From the NCBI GenBank assembly GCA_947499155.1, contig CANMND010000001.1:62001-126000 (forward strand): a stretch of 64,000 bases of DNA. The letters run 5' to 3'. This document shows positions 2,883-39,066 of the stretch, in pieces. The first letter of the stretch is position 1; each line of letters opens with the position of its first letter. The DNA comes from an uncultured Sphingomonadales bacterium (lineage in GTDB: Bacteria; Pseudomonadota; Alphaproteobacteria; Sphingomonadales; Rhodothalassiaceae). The translations under genes were made by a program, and so were the position numbers. The notes beneath the pieces were generated by a model. It did not search any database. It was given only the letters and a program-made list of their open reading frames with translations, and was not told the origin of the DNA.

Positions 2883-4097
2883 ATGACCAACACAGCCACC
2901 CAGAATGACCGCCCACTATTCACATCCTATGACATAATGCGTCTGCGCAAAGAGACGCCTGGCACTGAACACCGCATCCACCTGGACAATGCAGGAGCTG
3001 CACTAATGCCCCTTAGGGTGTCCGACACATTGCGCAAACATATTGACCTGGAAACAAGGCTGGGCGGCTATGTGGCACAAGAACGAATGAGTGATAAGCT
3101 TGAAAAAAGTTACGAATCCACAGCCAGACTTTTAGGGGCACACCCTGATGAGATCGCGTATCTGTCCAGCGCGACCGATGCCTGGGATCGGGCTTTTTAT
3201 AGCCTGCGCCTGCGCCCTGGTGACAAAATTATCACGGCATTCAATGAATATTGCTCAAACTTTGTGGCCTTTTTGCATCGGGTCCAAAGGGACGGCATCC
3301 AGATCATCGTTATCGAAAAGGACGACACAGGCACTCTTGACCTTAAGGCCATGGAAGCAGCCATCGATAAAAAAGTGAAGCTGATCGCAATCAGCCACGT
3401 GCCATCATCCTCGGGGCAAATAAATCCGGCAAAGGCGGTCGGGCGGATCAGTCGTGCCCACAACATCCCCTATCTGCTTGATGCCTGCCAATCTGTTGGA
3501 CAACTCCTTGTGGACGTCGATGATATTGGCTGCGATATGCTAACGGGGACGGCACGTAAATTCCTGCGCGGCCCCCGGGGCATGGGTTTTCTTTATATCA
3601 GGCGCAGTTTTCTGGATAAGCTGGATCCGGTCATGCTGACCAACCAGGCTGCAAGCTGGACAGACTCTGACAGCTATAGCTTGCGTACCGATGCCCGCAT
3701 CATGGAAGCATGGGAACGTAATATAGCGGCGCAACTGGCCTTTGGTGCTGCGGCGGACTATCTGCTTGATCTGGGCGTCGAACGGGCAATCAGTCGCACT
3801 GCCACGCTTTCAAAATATCTTCGAGACGGGCTAACCACATTAAAGCCAGTCACACCAACAGACCCAGGGCACGATCTGTGCGCCATCGTCACGTTCCAGC
3901 ACCGCAACCATGAACCCGGCAATATCAAGCAGATGATGGAGCAGCAGGGAATTGCCGTGCAGGTCTCAAGCGTTGAACATACCAGACTTGATCTGGATGC
4001 CCGCGGCATCAGCAAAACCGTCCGCGTCTCGCCGCATTACTACAATACCGAAGACGAGATTGATCGCTTTCTTGAAGCCCTTGATGCCTTGAACTGA
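2883..4097 (+). CDS. Class V aminotransferase / cysteine-desulfurase-like PLP enzyme
   Basis: PLP-dependent enzyme of fold type I (404 aa), aminotransferase class V family (SufS/IscS, isopenicillin-N epimerase relatives). HLDNAGAALMP near residue 33 is the usual substrate-entry segment, the PLP-ring aspartate lies in LLDACQSVGQ (D200), and the Schiff-base lysine is K226 in TARKFLRGPRG. No flexible active-site loop with a cysteine (typical RxGHHC of SufS) is evident, and no suf/isc genes are nearby, so a role in Fe-S assembly is unlikely. The reaction may be an amino acid lyase, epimerase or desulfurase. It is divergent from the FAAL gene and meets the EamA gene tail to tail with 7 bp between. 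Confidence 0.85.
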   Translation: MTNTATQNDRPLFTSYDIMRLRKETPGTEHRIHLDNAGAALMPLRVSDTLRKHIDLETRLGGYVAQERMSDKLEKSYESTARLLGAHPDEIAYLSSATDAWDRAFYSLRLRPGDKIITAFNEYCSNFVAFLHRVQRDGIQIIVIEKDDTGTLDLKAMEAAIDKKVKLIAISHVPSSSGQINPAKAVGRISRAHNIPYLLDACQSVGQLLVDVDDIGCDMLTGTARKFLRGPRGMGFLYIRRSFLDKLDPVMLTNQAASWTDSDSYSLRTDARIMEAWERNIAAQLAFGAAADYLLDLGVERAISRTATLSKYLRDGLTTLKPVTPTDPGHDLCAIVTFQHRNHEPGNIKQMMEQQGIAVQVSSVEHTRLDLDARGISKTVRVSPHYYNTEDEIDRFLEALDALN

Positions 4098-36769: not shown

Positions 36770-36960
36770 GGCGCATCCTTGTCAGTCGAAGGTGCCATTG
36801 TCCGCCTGGCACAATTTATTGCAAGCACTGGTGTGAAGGAAATGAAAGGCGGACCCACTATTAGGTGAAATTTAGCAAGCTTTGCTTTACCGACGTTACC
36901 TTGACCCTCCGGCCCTTCATCATCCCGCATCTCCACCCTTGGTCGCCCCACAGCCCCCTT

Positions 36961-37018
36961 GACCGCCCCACATCCTCACACTTGACCGCCCCACATCCTC
37001 ACACTTGACCGCCCCACA
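36961..37018. repeat. 23-bp tandem repeat (about 2.6 units)
   Basis: The unit GACCGCCCCACATCCTCACACTT is repeated twice and followed by a partial third copy (its first half listed as two 20-base-or-shorter parts: GACCGCCCCAC and ATCCTCACACTT). It lies in the 546-bp gene-free stretch between moaA and the small Y-polymerase-linked gene. Confidence 0.85.
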
Positions 37019-37054
37019 ACCCTACCATTCGTCACCCCACAACCCCCACCCTTC

Positions 37055-37144
37055 GTCATCCCACGACTTGATCGTGGGATCCATAATGACATCCATGCCA
37101 CACGCTTTTTAAAGACAGATTCCCCGGTCAAGCCGGGGAATGAC
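37055..37144. repeat. REP-like inverted repeat pair, diverged copy A
   Basis: Two hairpins, one built on CCCACGA/TCGTGGG and one on TTCCCCGG/CCGGGGAA, separated by about 35 bp. The same two-hairpin layout recurs at 44083-44171 and 44431-44519. Protein frames reading through such repeats are spurious. Confidence 0.75.
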
Positions 37145-37147
37145 AAA

Positions 37148-37197
37148 AGAGAGGACGGGGAAGGGTAACCGAAGAGAGGACGGGGAAGGGTAACCGG
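37148..37197. repeat. 25-bp tandem duplication
   Basis: A purine-rich 25-bp unit (starting AGAGAGGACGGGG) is present twice in tandem, right after REP-like copy A, differing at the last base. Confidence 0.8.
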
Positions 37198-37315
37198 AGA
37201 GAGAGCCAAGGAATGACGACGAGGACGGTGACAGTGACAGGAGTGAACGAACGGAAGCCAAGGACAAAAGCCGGAACCACTGATCCGGATCAAAGCGGTG
37301 CAGATCGTTTCGTCC

Positions 37316-37579
37316 TCACGCCAGACCGCCGATGAAGTGGTGGTCTTTGTGGGCGCGGATGGGCATGATTGTTATCTGTTGTGCCGCTTTGCGCGGGTGA
37401 TCGCGGCTGCGTGGGCAGACAAGGGCCTGCTCCACCTCTGGAAGGTACATGCGGGCGTGGATGCGGGGCCTTTTCAAAAGCTCTGTGGGCAGCTCGTACC
37501 ACGTAAAACCACAAAGACAACAGCGGCAGGCAAAGCGATAGCCGTCCTCATAATCAGTCAGTTGCAGGTCAATGGTCAT
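37316..37579 (-). CDS. Small Cys-rich protein coupled to a Y-family polymerase (unrecognised)
   Basis: Hypothetical protein (87 aa). Its ATG shares one base with the polymerase stop codon (TAATG), so translation is coupled. The N-terminal half is acidic and carries a Cys cluster, FACRCCLCGFTWYELP, which could bind zinc or iron; the middle holds RIHARMYLPEVEQALVCPRS with one more cysteine. No family is recognised. Position and overlap suggest an accessory factor for the polymerase or a DNA-damage response, which is inference. Residues toward the C-terminus lie near the repeat island and may be less conserved. Confidence 0.6.
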   Translation of the reverse strand: MTIDLQLTDYEDGYRFACRCCLCGFTWYELPTELLKRPRIHARMYLPEVEQALVCPRSRDHPRKAAQQITIMPIRAHKDHHFIGGLA

Positions 37580-38826
37580 TACCAGGAATCCTCGATATCA
37601 GGAATGCGGCTGAAAGCGATCTTGGCCCCGGCATAGCCGCCGGGTGGTGGTGTCCATGGCCCCTGACTGATGACCGTTGCGGCATATTTGGCATTTACCT
37701 CGTCAATGACCTCAGAGACACGCCGCCAGCGCTCGGACTGTGGCGTTGGTGGCTCCAGCAGATCCAGTTGCCGATGGCCTTCCAAAGCCAGATCATAATG
37801 GGCCACATGAACCCGGATGATCCGTGACAGGGGCCGCAAAACCGTGCGTGCCTCTTCCCACAAGCGGGAAAGTGCCGCCATTGAGGCATGATCGTCATTG
37901 CTTTCATGAAGCCGCGCCTCGCCTGACCATTTGTGGTCTTTCATATCCAGCCACAAACCAAAACGCCGCGCCACATAGCCTTCCCGGCGCATTCGTCGGG
38001 CTGCCTTGACGGTCAAAAGCCGGGAATAGGCAAAAGCCTCGTCAGGGCTGCGCTGGTCCGGTGGCAAAACCCGGCCATGACCGAACATGGCACGCGCTGC
38101 CTTTTCCGCCTGCACCGCATAGCCATGAAGCGCATACCAGAAACGCTCGCCATTCACATTACCCCAAAGCGCCCGCAACTGCTTTGGCTGCGTGTTCCAC
38201 AAATCCTCGACAGACCAGATCCCTGCATCCTGGAGGCGGGCCAGCATCCGCCGCCCCACGCCGGGGATATCGTCCAGCTTCAAGTCCAGCAATCGCCCCG
38301 GCAGATCATCCGGCTGAAGAATGGTCAGGCCATTGGGCTTGTCCATATCACTGGCAATCTTTGCCAATTGCCGGTTGGGCGCCATGCCGATGGAACAGGT
38401 GATGTAGGGGCCGACCCGCTCGACAATGCGGGCCTTGATCCGTTGCGCCAGGTCTTGTGGATTTTCCCTGTCGCCTGCATCCAGAAGGCAGGCCAGTTCA
38501 TCAATCGAACAGACCACATCAATGGGAACAACGGCCTCAATCTCTAAAAGCAGCTTTCTGTGGGCGCGTGCATAAAGCTCTGGCGATTGGGGAACCAGTT
38601 GAATATCGGGACACAGGCGTCGCGCCTCAAGAACAGCGGTGCCAGTACGAACACCAAAGGCCTTGGCACGGGCATTGGCAGCGATCACTATGGTTGCCGT
38701 AGCATGCTCAAAAGGAATCACTCCAATGGCCGCGCCACGTAGGCGCGGCCGCGCCTGCTCCTCAACAGCTGCGAAAAAACCATCAAAATCAATGTACATG
38801 CATTCCAGCGTGTCAGGCTTGCGCAT
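37579..38826 (-). CDS. Y-family DNA polymerase (UmuC/DinB-like)
   Basis: Translesion polymerase (415 aa). The palm begins MYIDFDGFFAAVEEQ with the first catalytic aspartate; the second catalytic pair is in CSIDELACLLDAG, which keeps the S-x-D-E pattern. ITCSIGMAPNRQLAKIASDM is the conserved thumb-approach block, and DIPGVGRRMLARL is the helix-hairpin-helix. The little-finger domain starts near residue 245. There is no visible beta-clamp motif of the canonical type and no umuD, imuA or dnaE2 partner nearby; instead a small Cys-rich gene is coupled to its 3' end. It is likely to bypass DNA lesions. Whether it is SOS-controlled cannot be told: no clear LexA box was seen. Confidence 0.88.
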   Translation of the reverse strand: MRKPDTLECMYIDFDGFFAAVEEQARPRLRGAAIGVIPFEHATATIVIAANARAKAFGVRTGTAVLEARRLCPDIQLVPQSPELYARAHRKLLLEIEAVVPIDVVCSIDELACLLDAGDRENPQDLAQRIKARIVERVGPYITCSIGMAPNRQLAKIASDMDKPNGLTILQPDDLPGRLLDLKLDDIPGVGRRMLARLQDAGIWSVEDLWNTQPKQLRALWGNVNGERFWYALHGYAVQAEKAARAMFGHGRVLPPDQRSPDEAFAYSRLLTVKAARRMRREGYVARRFGLWLDMKDHKWSGEARLHESNDDHASMAALSRLWEEARTVLRPLSRIIRVHVAHYDLALEGHRQLDLLEPPTPQSERWRRVSEVIDEVNAKYAATVISQGPWTPPPGGYAGAKIAFSRIPDIEDSW

Positions 38827-38933
38827 CGTGTTCCCATTTACTTATTGCCATGACGATCAATAAGAACAAAATGAGAACAAATGTGCAAGGGTCACACAGC
38901 CACAGATGCTTGATTTTGACACTTCGCCCGAAA

Positions 38934-38990: not shown

Positions 38991-39066
38991 TGGTGACCCC
39001 TACGGGACTCGAACCCGTGTTTTCGCCGTGAAAGGGCGACGTCCTAGACCGCTAGACGAAGGGGCC
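38991..39066 (-). tRNA. tRNA-Glu (UUC anticodon)
   Basis: A complete cloverleaf reads from 39066 to 38991: acceptor GGCCCCT pairing with AGGGGTC, anticodon arm CGCCCTTTCACGGCG with anticodon TTC, T-arm ACGGGTTCGAGTCCCGT, discriminator A and an encoded CCA. It is followed by a terminator and has the recJ gene upstream on the same strand. Confidence 0.96.

Follow-up and report, generated by a model that had tools for sequence, protein, structure and literature searches.

We analysed a 64,000-nucleotide stretch of DNA (the window) from an uncultured Sphingomonadales bacterium, taken from contig CANMND010000001.1 (positions 62,001 to 126,000). The locus of interest comprises two genes on the minus strand. 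The first, at 37579..38826, encodes a Y-family DNA polymerase of 415 amino acids with an ATG start. It was identified as an open reading frame (ORF) with a Pfam match and has intact catalytic residues. The second, at 37316..37579, encodes a small Cys-rich partner of 87 amino acids, also with an ATG start, that contains CRCCLCG. It is recognised by its ORF, its homologues and its adjacency to the polymerase gene. The TAA stop codon of the polymerase gene and the ATG of the small gene have base 37579 in common (TAATG; junction TGGTAATGACC). Both ORFs and the one-base overlap had been claimed by a sequence-only reading of the window; the minus-strand coordinates and the junction sequence bear this out. 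A LexA-type box was not mentioned in that reading. The box, GTTC-N7-GTTC (GAACAAAATGAGAAC; 38864..38878, minus strand), is of the alphaproteobacterial type and lies 37 nt upstream of the polymerase start.

The two genes are rarely apart. We searched 99 genomes, being the window genome and relatives, most of them from the order, with the small ORF as a single sequence. Homologues were found in 13 genomes, at 14 loci. At 13 of these a Y-family polymerase, 55–100% identical to that of the window, is encoded directly upstream. The fourteenth locus (L014) holds a lone copy of the small gene, with its own LexA-type box and a GFVGG-type C-terminal tail. A single-sequence search misses divergent members; genome G070 (locus L207), from the same set of 99, has a partner according to a profile. 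Counts were also made starting from the polymerase, after removal of identical sequences. The fetched loci include 111 distinct polymerases at least 45% identical to that of the window, an identity line set after the data had been seen. Their sources are a genome scan (77), viral contigs (18), relatives (10), plasmids (5) and a class search (1). The small gene is adjacent to 103 of these, lies at 93–400 nt in 4 (L098, L105, L112 and L125), is not nearby in 3 and could not be assessed in 1. Hence, the homologue co-occurs with the polymerase in 107 of 110 assessable cases. Among 43 fetched polymerases at 30–45% identity, the partner is absent in 42 and unassessable in 1. The adjacent genes mostly overlap (95 pairs), by 4 bases in 49 and by 1 base in 46. 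At one adjacent pair, from a metagenome-assembled genome, polymerase and partner form one frame of 494 amino acids (L129:4001-5482) after a frame change in the tail; this is either a natural fusion or a sequence error. The 3 polymerases with no adjacent partner (L089, L206 and L075) are all full-length. In the L089 genome the partner sits behind another polymerase copy. The L206 genome has a lone small-gene homologue with its own LexA-type box, and no small-gene homologue was seen in the L075 genome.

The genome scan covered one genome per species (84,980 species) and gave at least 449 confirmed relatives; we kept the 80 best. Its alignment (A3) was built mostly from polymerases beside the small gene, and the counts lean to close relatives. 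A class-wide polymerase search of 387 genomes is independent of this bias. It matched 30 genomes. Three polymerases, at 54–100% identity, all have the partner; the other 27 genomes encode polymerases at 35–44%, of which 26 are without the partner and 1 is unassessable. One genome search left 12 of its 42 matching places unfetched as loci. Eleven of these are at 38–44% identity; the other, G034 at 66%, runs off its contig such that the partner cannot be judged. Viral contigs yielded 19 polymerase relatives, and a plasmid search with the polymerase returned 29 records. For all 12 plasmid polymerases at or above 46.9% identity (H1-H12), the following gene belongs to the small family, judging from annotation, translation or match position. 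The gene is unannotated in one of these records, and the plasmid small proteins are divergent members of the family. Of the seven plasmid records read first, five have the small gene and two, with polymerases at 37.8% and 33.6%, are without it. Named isolates with the pair belong to Kordiimonas, the Brucella/Rhizobium group, Novosphingobium, Paramagnetospirillum and Yoonia, which we take to represent five alphaproteobacterial orders; plasmids and viral contigs carry it too.

The GTTC-N7-GTTC direct repeat is the LexA-binding motif reported for alphaproteobacteria (PMC3323433; cited papers are represented here by portions of their text). The window contains three such sites, with 1.5 expected, and a single site alone is weak evidence. 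The box before the polymerase gene counts as strong because it is conserved among relatives. In the group at or above 45% identity, 99 of 106 assessable polymerases have a LexA-type box within 200 nt upstream, compared with 30 of 4183 background 200-nt windows of the fetched loci. Such boxes also precede 20 of 29 more distant polymerases examined. SOS control of the polymerase therefore looks like the older trait. The lexA gene of the window genome is itself preceded by such a box, 68 nt from its likely ATG. The box at the promoter puts the pair in the predicted LexA regulon, and the genes would be induced accordingly. We regard it as close to certain that the two genes form a LexA-controlled, functionally linked module.

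Across 70 aligned small proteins D9, C20, C23, C55, F82 and G85 (window numbering) are invariant. The first Cys pair, C20-x2-C23, is encoded at 37511..37522 on the minus strand, as are the second site, C55-PRSRD-H61 (37397..37417), and the C-terminal tail FIGGLA (37319..37336). Other members have CxxC or CxxxxC at the second site. Of 100 family members, 98 have four Cys in two pairs. The other two, from the window and a congener, retain C20, C23 and C55, with a His six residues beyond C55. CRCCLCG, to which the sequence-only reading had drawn attention, is a local feature of the window protein; the family as a whole conserves CxxC and a second pair, CxxC or CxxxxC. The family consensus at the C terminus is GFVGG(L/M), and the FIGGLA tail includes the invariant F82 and G85. 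An AlphaFold2 model of the window protein has a mean predicted local distance difference test score (pLDDT) of 83.1, falling to about 52 in the last block of residues; a four-Cys member scores 75.7. Foldseek comparison of the window model with the PDB gave no match at E 0.001. In the fold alignment most rows are zinc domains, from HypA, MCM and sirtuins, and every match is weak (Z at most 4.1). Taken together, motifs and models suggest that the small protein is probably zinc-ribbon-like.

No described family was found to accommodate the protein, and the earlier reading had recognised none. Eleven small proteins gave nothing above curated cut-offs in Pfam and NCBIfam, which rules out a hidden UmuD, YolD or other known family there. 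Nine were compared with PHROGs, which has no cut-off; the best match (E 3e-4, over a 35-residue stretch) is not convincing. A sequence search of solved structures gave a best E of 0.036. A role as hydrogenase metallochaperone was dropped; the likeness to HypA is under all cut-offs and no hydrogenase context was seen. The window small protein gave no plasmid match at E 0.01, while a plasmid-type member used as query matched 36 plasmid records and no annotated phage. Another family member, used as single query, matched no viral contig.

Relatives of the small protein occur elsewhere. In Alphaproteobacteria the profile gives weak matches to small standalone proteins that contain two CxxC pairs (L226-L255, L025, L027 and L224), several with the core ..WCNRCGHN.. 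RCSGCGSKD..TRP.WP. An earlier selection of 30 standalone picks contained several wrong frames. The present 29 come from 40 loci, after we dropped polymerase loci (L248 and L254), loci with no CxxC..CxxC (L241, L245 and L014) and six repeats. In 45 of 289 genomes there was a match to a profile built from eight standalone relatives; the 45 include the window genome and two more in which the matched protein is a polymerase partner. Comparison of the standalone profile with that of the partner family gave a probability of 97.7 and an E of 2.5e-12, over both Cys pairs. Because the relatives came from a profile search, their match to the partners is in part a product of selection, which does not apply to their LexA boxes. 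Of the 29 standalone cases, 17 have a LexA-type box in the 300 nt before the first Cys codon, compared with 3 of 221 control windows at the same loci. Orphan copies L014 and L224 also have their own boxes. Nine standalone proteins reached no Pfam or NCBIfam cut-off; five of them resemble HypA below cut-offs, at E 0.003-0.1. We tentatively suggest, at rather less than even odds, that an uncatalogued alphaproteobacterial superfamily of LexA-controlled small zinc-ribbon proteins acts as SOS adaptors.

Partner-bearing polymerases share a single history. In a maximum-likelihood tree of 94 polymerases, all 49 partner-bearing proteins drawn (of 105) and the 3 with no adjacent partner fall on one branch, with support of 100/98. 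Outside it are 41 partnerless relatives and one DinB, which has a very long branch and leaves the root unsure. Mapping the partner label onto the tree takes three changes, as would be expected from one gain plus losses. L206 branches first in the clade; an adjacent partner may never have been present there. The likeliest history, judging from these sequences, is that an SOS-controlled zinc-ribbon gene was put behind a LexA-controlled polymerase once and was then kept.

The sequence-only reading described the polymerase as UmuC/DinB-like. It is a Y-family member, matching the Pfam domains IMS (PF00817; E 7.3e-34, 117.3 bits with a cut-off of 23.2) and IMS_C. It reaches the cut-off of neither subfamily in NCBIfam; the best DinB equivalog score is 153.1 bits (cut-off 256) and the UmuC model PRK03609.1 gives 67.4 bits, far under its cut-off of 431. 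Residues D13, D15 and S107-I-D-E110 are invariant in 18 aligned relatives. We take D13 and D109-E110 to be catalytic, by analogy with D8, D103 and E104 of DinB. Since these carboxylates are invariant, the polymerase should be active. Residues 353-357 (37756..37770, minus strand) form a beta-clamp-binding-like motif, QLDLL, in which Q353 is invariant; the clamp-binding consensus is QxxLF (PMC12926913). Profile alignment to RecA N-termini identifies a RecA-NT-like segment after this motif (VIDEVNAKYAATVISQG, residues 373-389; 37660..37710, minus strand). The hhalign E value is 0.046 for this clade, which is weak, and 6e-4 for sister polymerases, in the same register. Alignment also reveals a conserved C-terminal tail (GGYAGAKIAFSRIPDIEDSW; 37582..37641, minus strand). 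The pattern in the clade is KI.(F/Y).RIP..EDFW. The EDFW end is found in 89 of 111 proteins and differs by one residue in 18 more; the window protein ends EDSW. The remaining tails (L129, L136, L162 and L207) are broken, cut or more divergent. Tails of sister polymerases mostly run on differently, for example as AKIAFNRIP..EF.E.

We also considered other SOS polymerases in the window genome. A PF00817 search found two proteins only, the window polymerase and one DinB, whose locus has no LexA-type box. DnaE2 was not found, and PF07733 (DNA_pol3_alpha) matches a single DnaE. No UmuD-like protein was found; of the three S24 proteins, one looks by eye like LexA and the other two are repressor-like. 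Absence of umuD and dnaE2, proposed earlier from the window, thus extends genome-wide in the PF00817, PF07733 and S24 searches, ImuA not having been searched by name. Hence, the pair is the only candidate SOS (LexA-boxed) mutasome found in this genome, with no Pol V and no DnaE2 mutasome found.

Our preferred interpretation, which we consider probable, is an SOS-induced translesion module in which the zinc-ribbon-like small protein is a dedicated polymerase subunit, in place of UmuD or YqjX. We favour a subunit because the genes overlap, have a LexA-type box in common and are paired near-obligately. A dedicated accessory factor, perhaps metal-binding, had been suggested by the sequence-only reading; given near-constant adjacency to the polymerase among relatives, it is the reading that survives. 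Briefly, DNA damage would inactivate LexA and so induce the pair. The overlapping genes would be translated together, giving matched amounts of both proteins. The clamp-binding motif would then bring an active Y-family polymerase to the fork. UmuC binds UmuD' by its C-terminal tail (PMC6511836). The small protein would most likely dock at the equivalent place, the tail KI.(F/Y).RIP..EDFW, where UmuC carries the UmuD' site. It is the conserved ends of both proteins that suggest this place of contact. The small protein may license or target the polymerase, perhaps with RecA via the degenerate RecA-NT segment. What the sequences show directly is that the genes form a pair, that this pairing is near-obligate, that a LexA-type box precedes it, that its polymerases fall in a single clade and that the motifs are present. 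That the genes are induced, that the small protein holds zinc and binds the polymerase, where it docks and which way its effect runs are inferred.

Several points weigh against a polymerase subunit. The support comes from sequence and from models of the small protein by itself. The window's own small protein is missing the fourth Cys, and the top fold row for its model is an unrelated polysaccharide-export protein, not a zinc protein. Similarity to RecA-NT is weak in this polymerase clade. The tail is broken in two of the polymerases that have the partner, L129 and L136. A related tail, and often a LexA box, is also found in partnerless sisters, such that neither trait is specific to pairing. 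In published models the YqjW tail makes no contact with YqjX (PMC12926913); therefore, a conserved tail need not be a docking site. The correlation of polymerase and partner distances over 100 pairs (r 0.874, a value reached in 0 of 2000 permutations), which fits a subunit, may reflect common inheritance alone and is no proof of contact. Finally, homologues with SOS boxes stand alone, and the domain need not work with a Y-family polymerase.

This last point leads to a different explanation. The small protein could be a general SOS zinc-ribbon adaptor for shared machinery (the RecA filament, SSB, the clamp or RNA polymerase), co-induced with the polymerase and not a subunit of it. The standalone homologues, their LexA boxes and the boxed orphan copies are all consistent with this. 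Conversely, pairing is near obligatory in the polymerase clade and the genes mostly overlap. Furthermore, the GFVGG-type tail of the partner family was not seen in the 29 standalone sequences, though orphan L014 does have one. We consider a general adaptor unlikely. Alternatively, the small protein could act as a brake, either by binding the polymerase and holding mutagenesis down until damage persists or by tagging the polymerase for degradation. Such a function would suit a gene so tightly coupled to that of a potentially harmful polymerase, and small regulatory subunits have been proposed for several mutasomes (PMC12926913). The three full-length polymerases with no adjacent partner argue against a brake, though a homologue is found elsewhere in two of those genomes; we judge it improbable. 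A chance open frame with no function, which the sequence-only reading would have recognised by a lack of homologues beside Y-family polymerases elsewhere, has no point in its favour and negligible probability, being already refuted by homologues adjacent in 103 of 111 fetched relatives, co-occurrence in 107 of 110 cases, residues invariant in 70 proteins and a single clade.

A dedicated polymerase subunit invites comparison with known systems. Like Pol V (UmuC-UmuD'), the pair has a polymerase with a conserved C-terminal tail. In umuD-umuC the umuD gene is first; here, the polymerase gene comes first. Unlike UmuD', the partner has no S24 peptidase match, and the polymerase has only 67.4 of the 431 bits for UmuC. 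YqjW-YqjX (UvrX-YolD) of B. subtilis is similar in that an SOS operon encodes a Y-family polymerase and a small accessory protein. In that system the polymerase is active and RecA is proposed as a third member (PMC6511836, PMC12926913). The proteins differ. There is no YolD match here (Pfam, 11 small proteins, E up to 1), and Cys pairs with a conserved C-terminal tail contrast with an SH3-like barrel and N-terminal arm in YqjX. In PolY with standalone ImuB-C, too, the gene beside that of the Y-family polymerase encodes a small protein, of about 80 residues (PMC3765255, PMC6511836). By description, ImuB-C is set apart; it is mostly beta with a conserved C-terminal Trp, whereas our protein has two Cys pairs and a GFVGG(L/M) end. 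The PolY-RecA type of Timinskas and Venclovas has a possible parallel in the RecA-NT-like segment seen in partnerless sisters and, weakly, in the window polymerase. This clade adds an obligate-looking component not found named in the portions of PMC12926913 considered. Likeness to the zinc domain of HypA is weak (two-knuckle Zn domain, Z 4.0). With all scores under cut-offs and no hydrogenase context seen, the resemblance is one of common fold only.

Known and proposed mutasomes combine an active Y-family polymerase, RecA and a small UmuD', YqjX/YolD, ImuB-C or SRAP-like protein (PMC6511836, PMC12926913). By analogy, the pair would follow this plan with a different small protein, as a member of neither UmuDC nor YqjW-YqjX. 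A 2026 survey describes eleven kinds of Y-family/DnaE2 mutasome (PMC12926913). No zinc-ribbon subunit was found among them in the portions of that survey covered. Similarly, neither the pair nor the standalone family was found named in the text portions covered of PMC12926913, PMC6511836, PMC3765255, PMC3323433, PMC3901139 and PMC6472365. The general plan is thus familiar; neither the small protein nor its pairing was found in this literature, and the module looks like an undescribed kind of mutagenesis complex. As a two-gene system it is small and open to testing, and could show how bacteria license error-prone synthesis when they have no UmuD. A second set of zinc-ribbon genes, standalone and SOS-boxed, also comes into view, and no family name was found for it.

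The module is accessory and lies beside a tRNA gene. A tRNA-Glu gene (window 38991-39066) separates it from recJ. In congener G001, recJ and tRNA-Glu are conserved and the DNA behind them is different; genome searches at the thresholds used found neither gene of the pair. On the other side, between the small gene and a moaA-like gene (window 36913-37200), there are short tandem-like repeats, with 5 copies at 20-23 nt spacing, and an exact 25-nt duplicate. The next most recurrent neighbour of the pair is a SRAP-like (SOS response-associated peptidase) cluster, found at 16 of 80 long loci including L017 and L018. Six members inspected lie upstream of the pair on the opposite strand.

Mobile elements also carry these genes. 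Copies of the pair occur in viral contigs of 28-66 kb. Several pairs among L130-L160 (Brucella/Ochrobactrum group and viral contigs) are near ORFs named by eye as lysozyme- or spanin-like. Prophages seem to carry this SOS polymerase module. One phage has a polymerase relative at 36%. Acinetobacter and Aeromonas plasmids (L190:2986-3252; H35-H46, H48 and H49) carry a small-gene member. It lies next to tet(Y), with no polymerase, in an A. bereziniae plasmid and is accompanied by the polymerase in Aeromonas pBY3. The plasmid small gene seems to have hitch-hiked with the tet(Y) segment from an alphaproteobacterial source. Enterobacterial plasmids (H54-H59) have two-piece unannotated matches to the small gene, and an E. 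coli plasmid record (L192, approximately 3001-3238) has a match between tetR(C) and an IS26 transposase. Among plasmid polymerases H1-H19, 18 of 19 are annotated 'type VI secretion protein ImpB'. Judging from the IMS domain, this label looks like a naming error.
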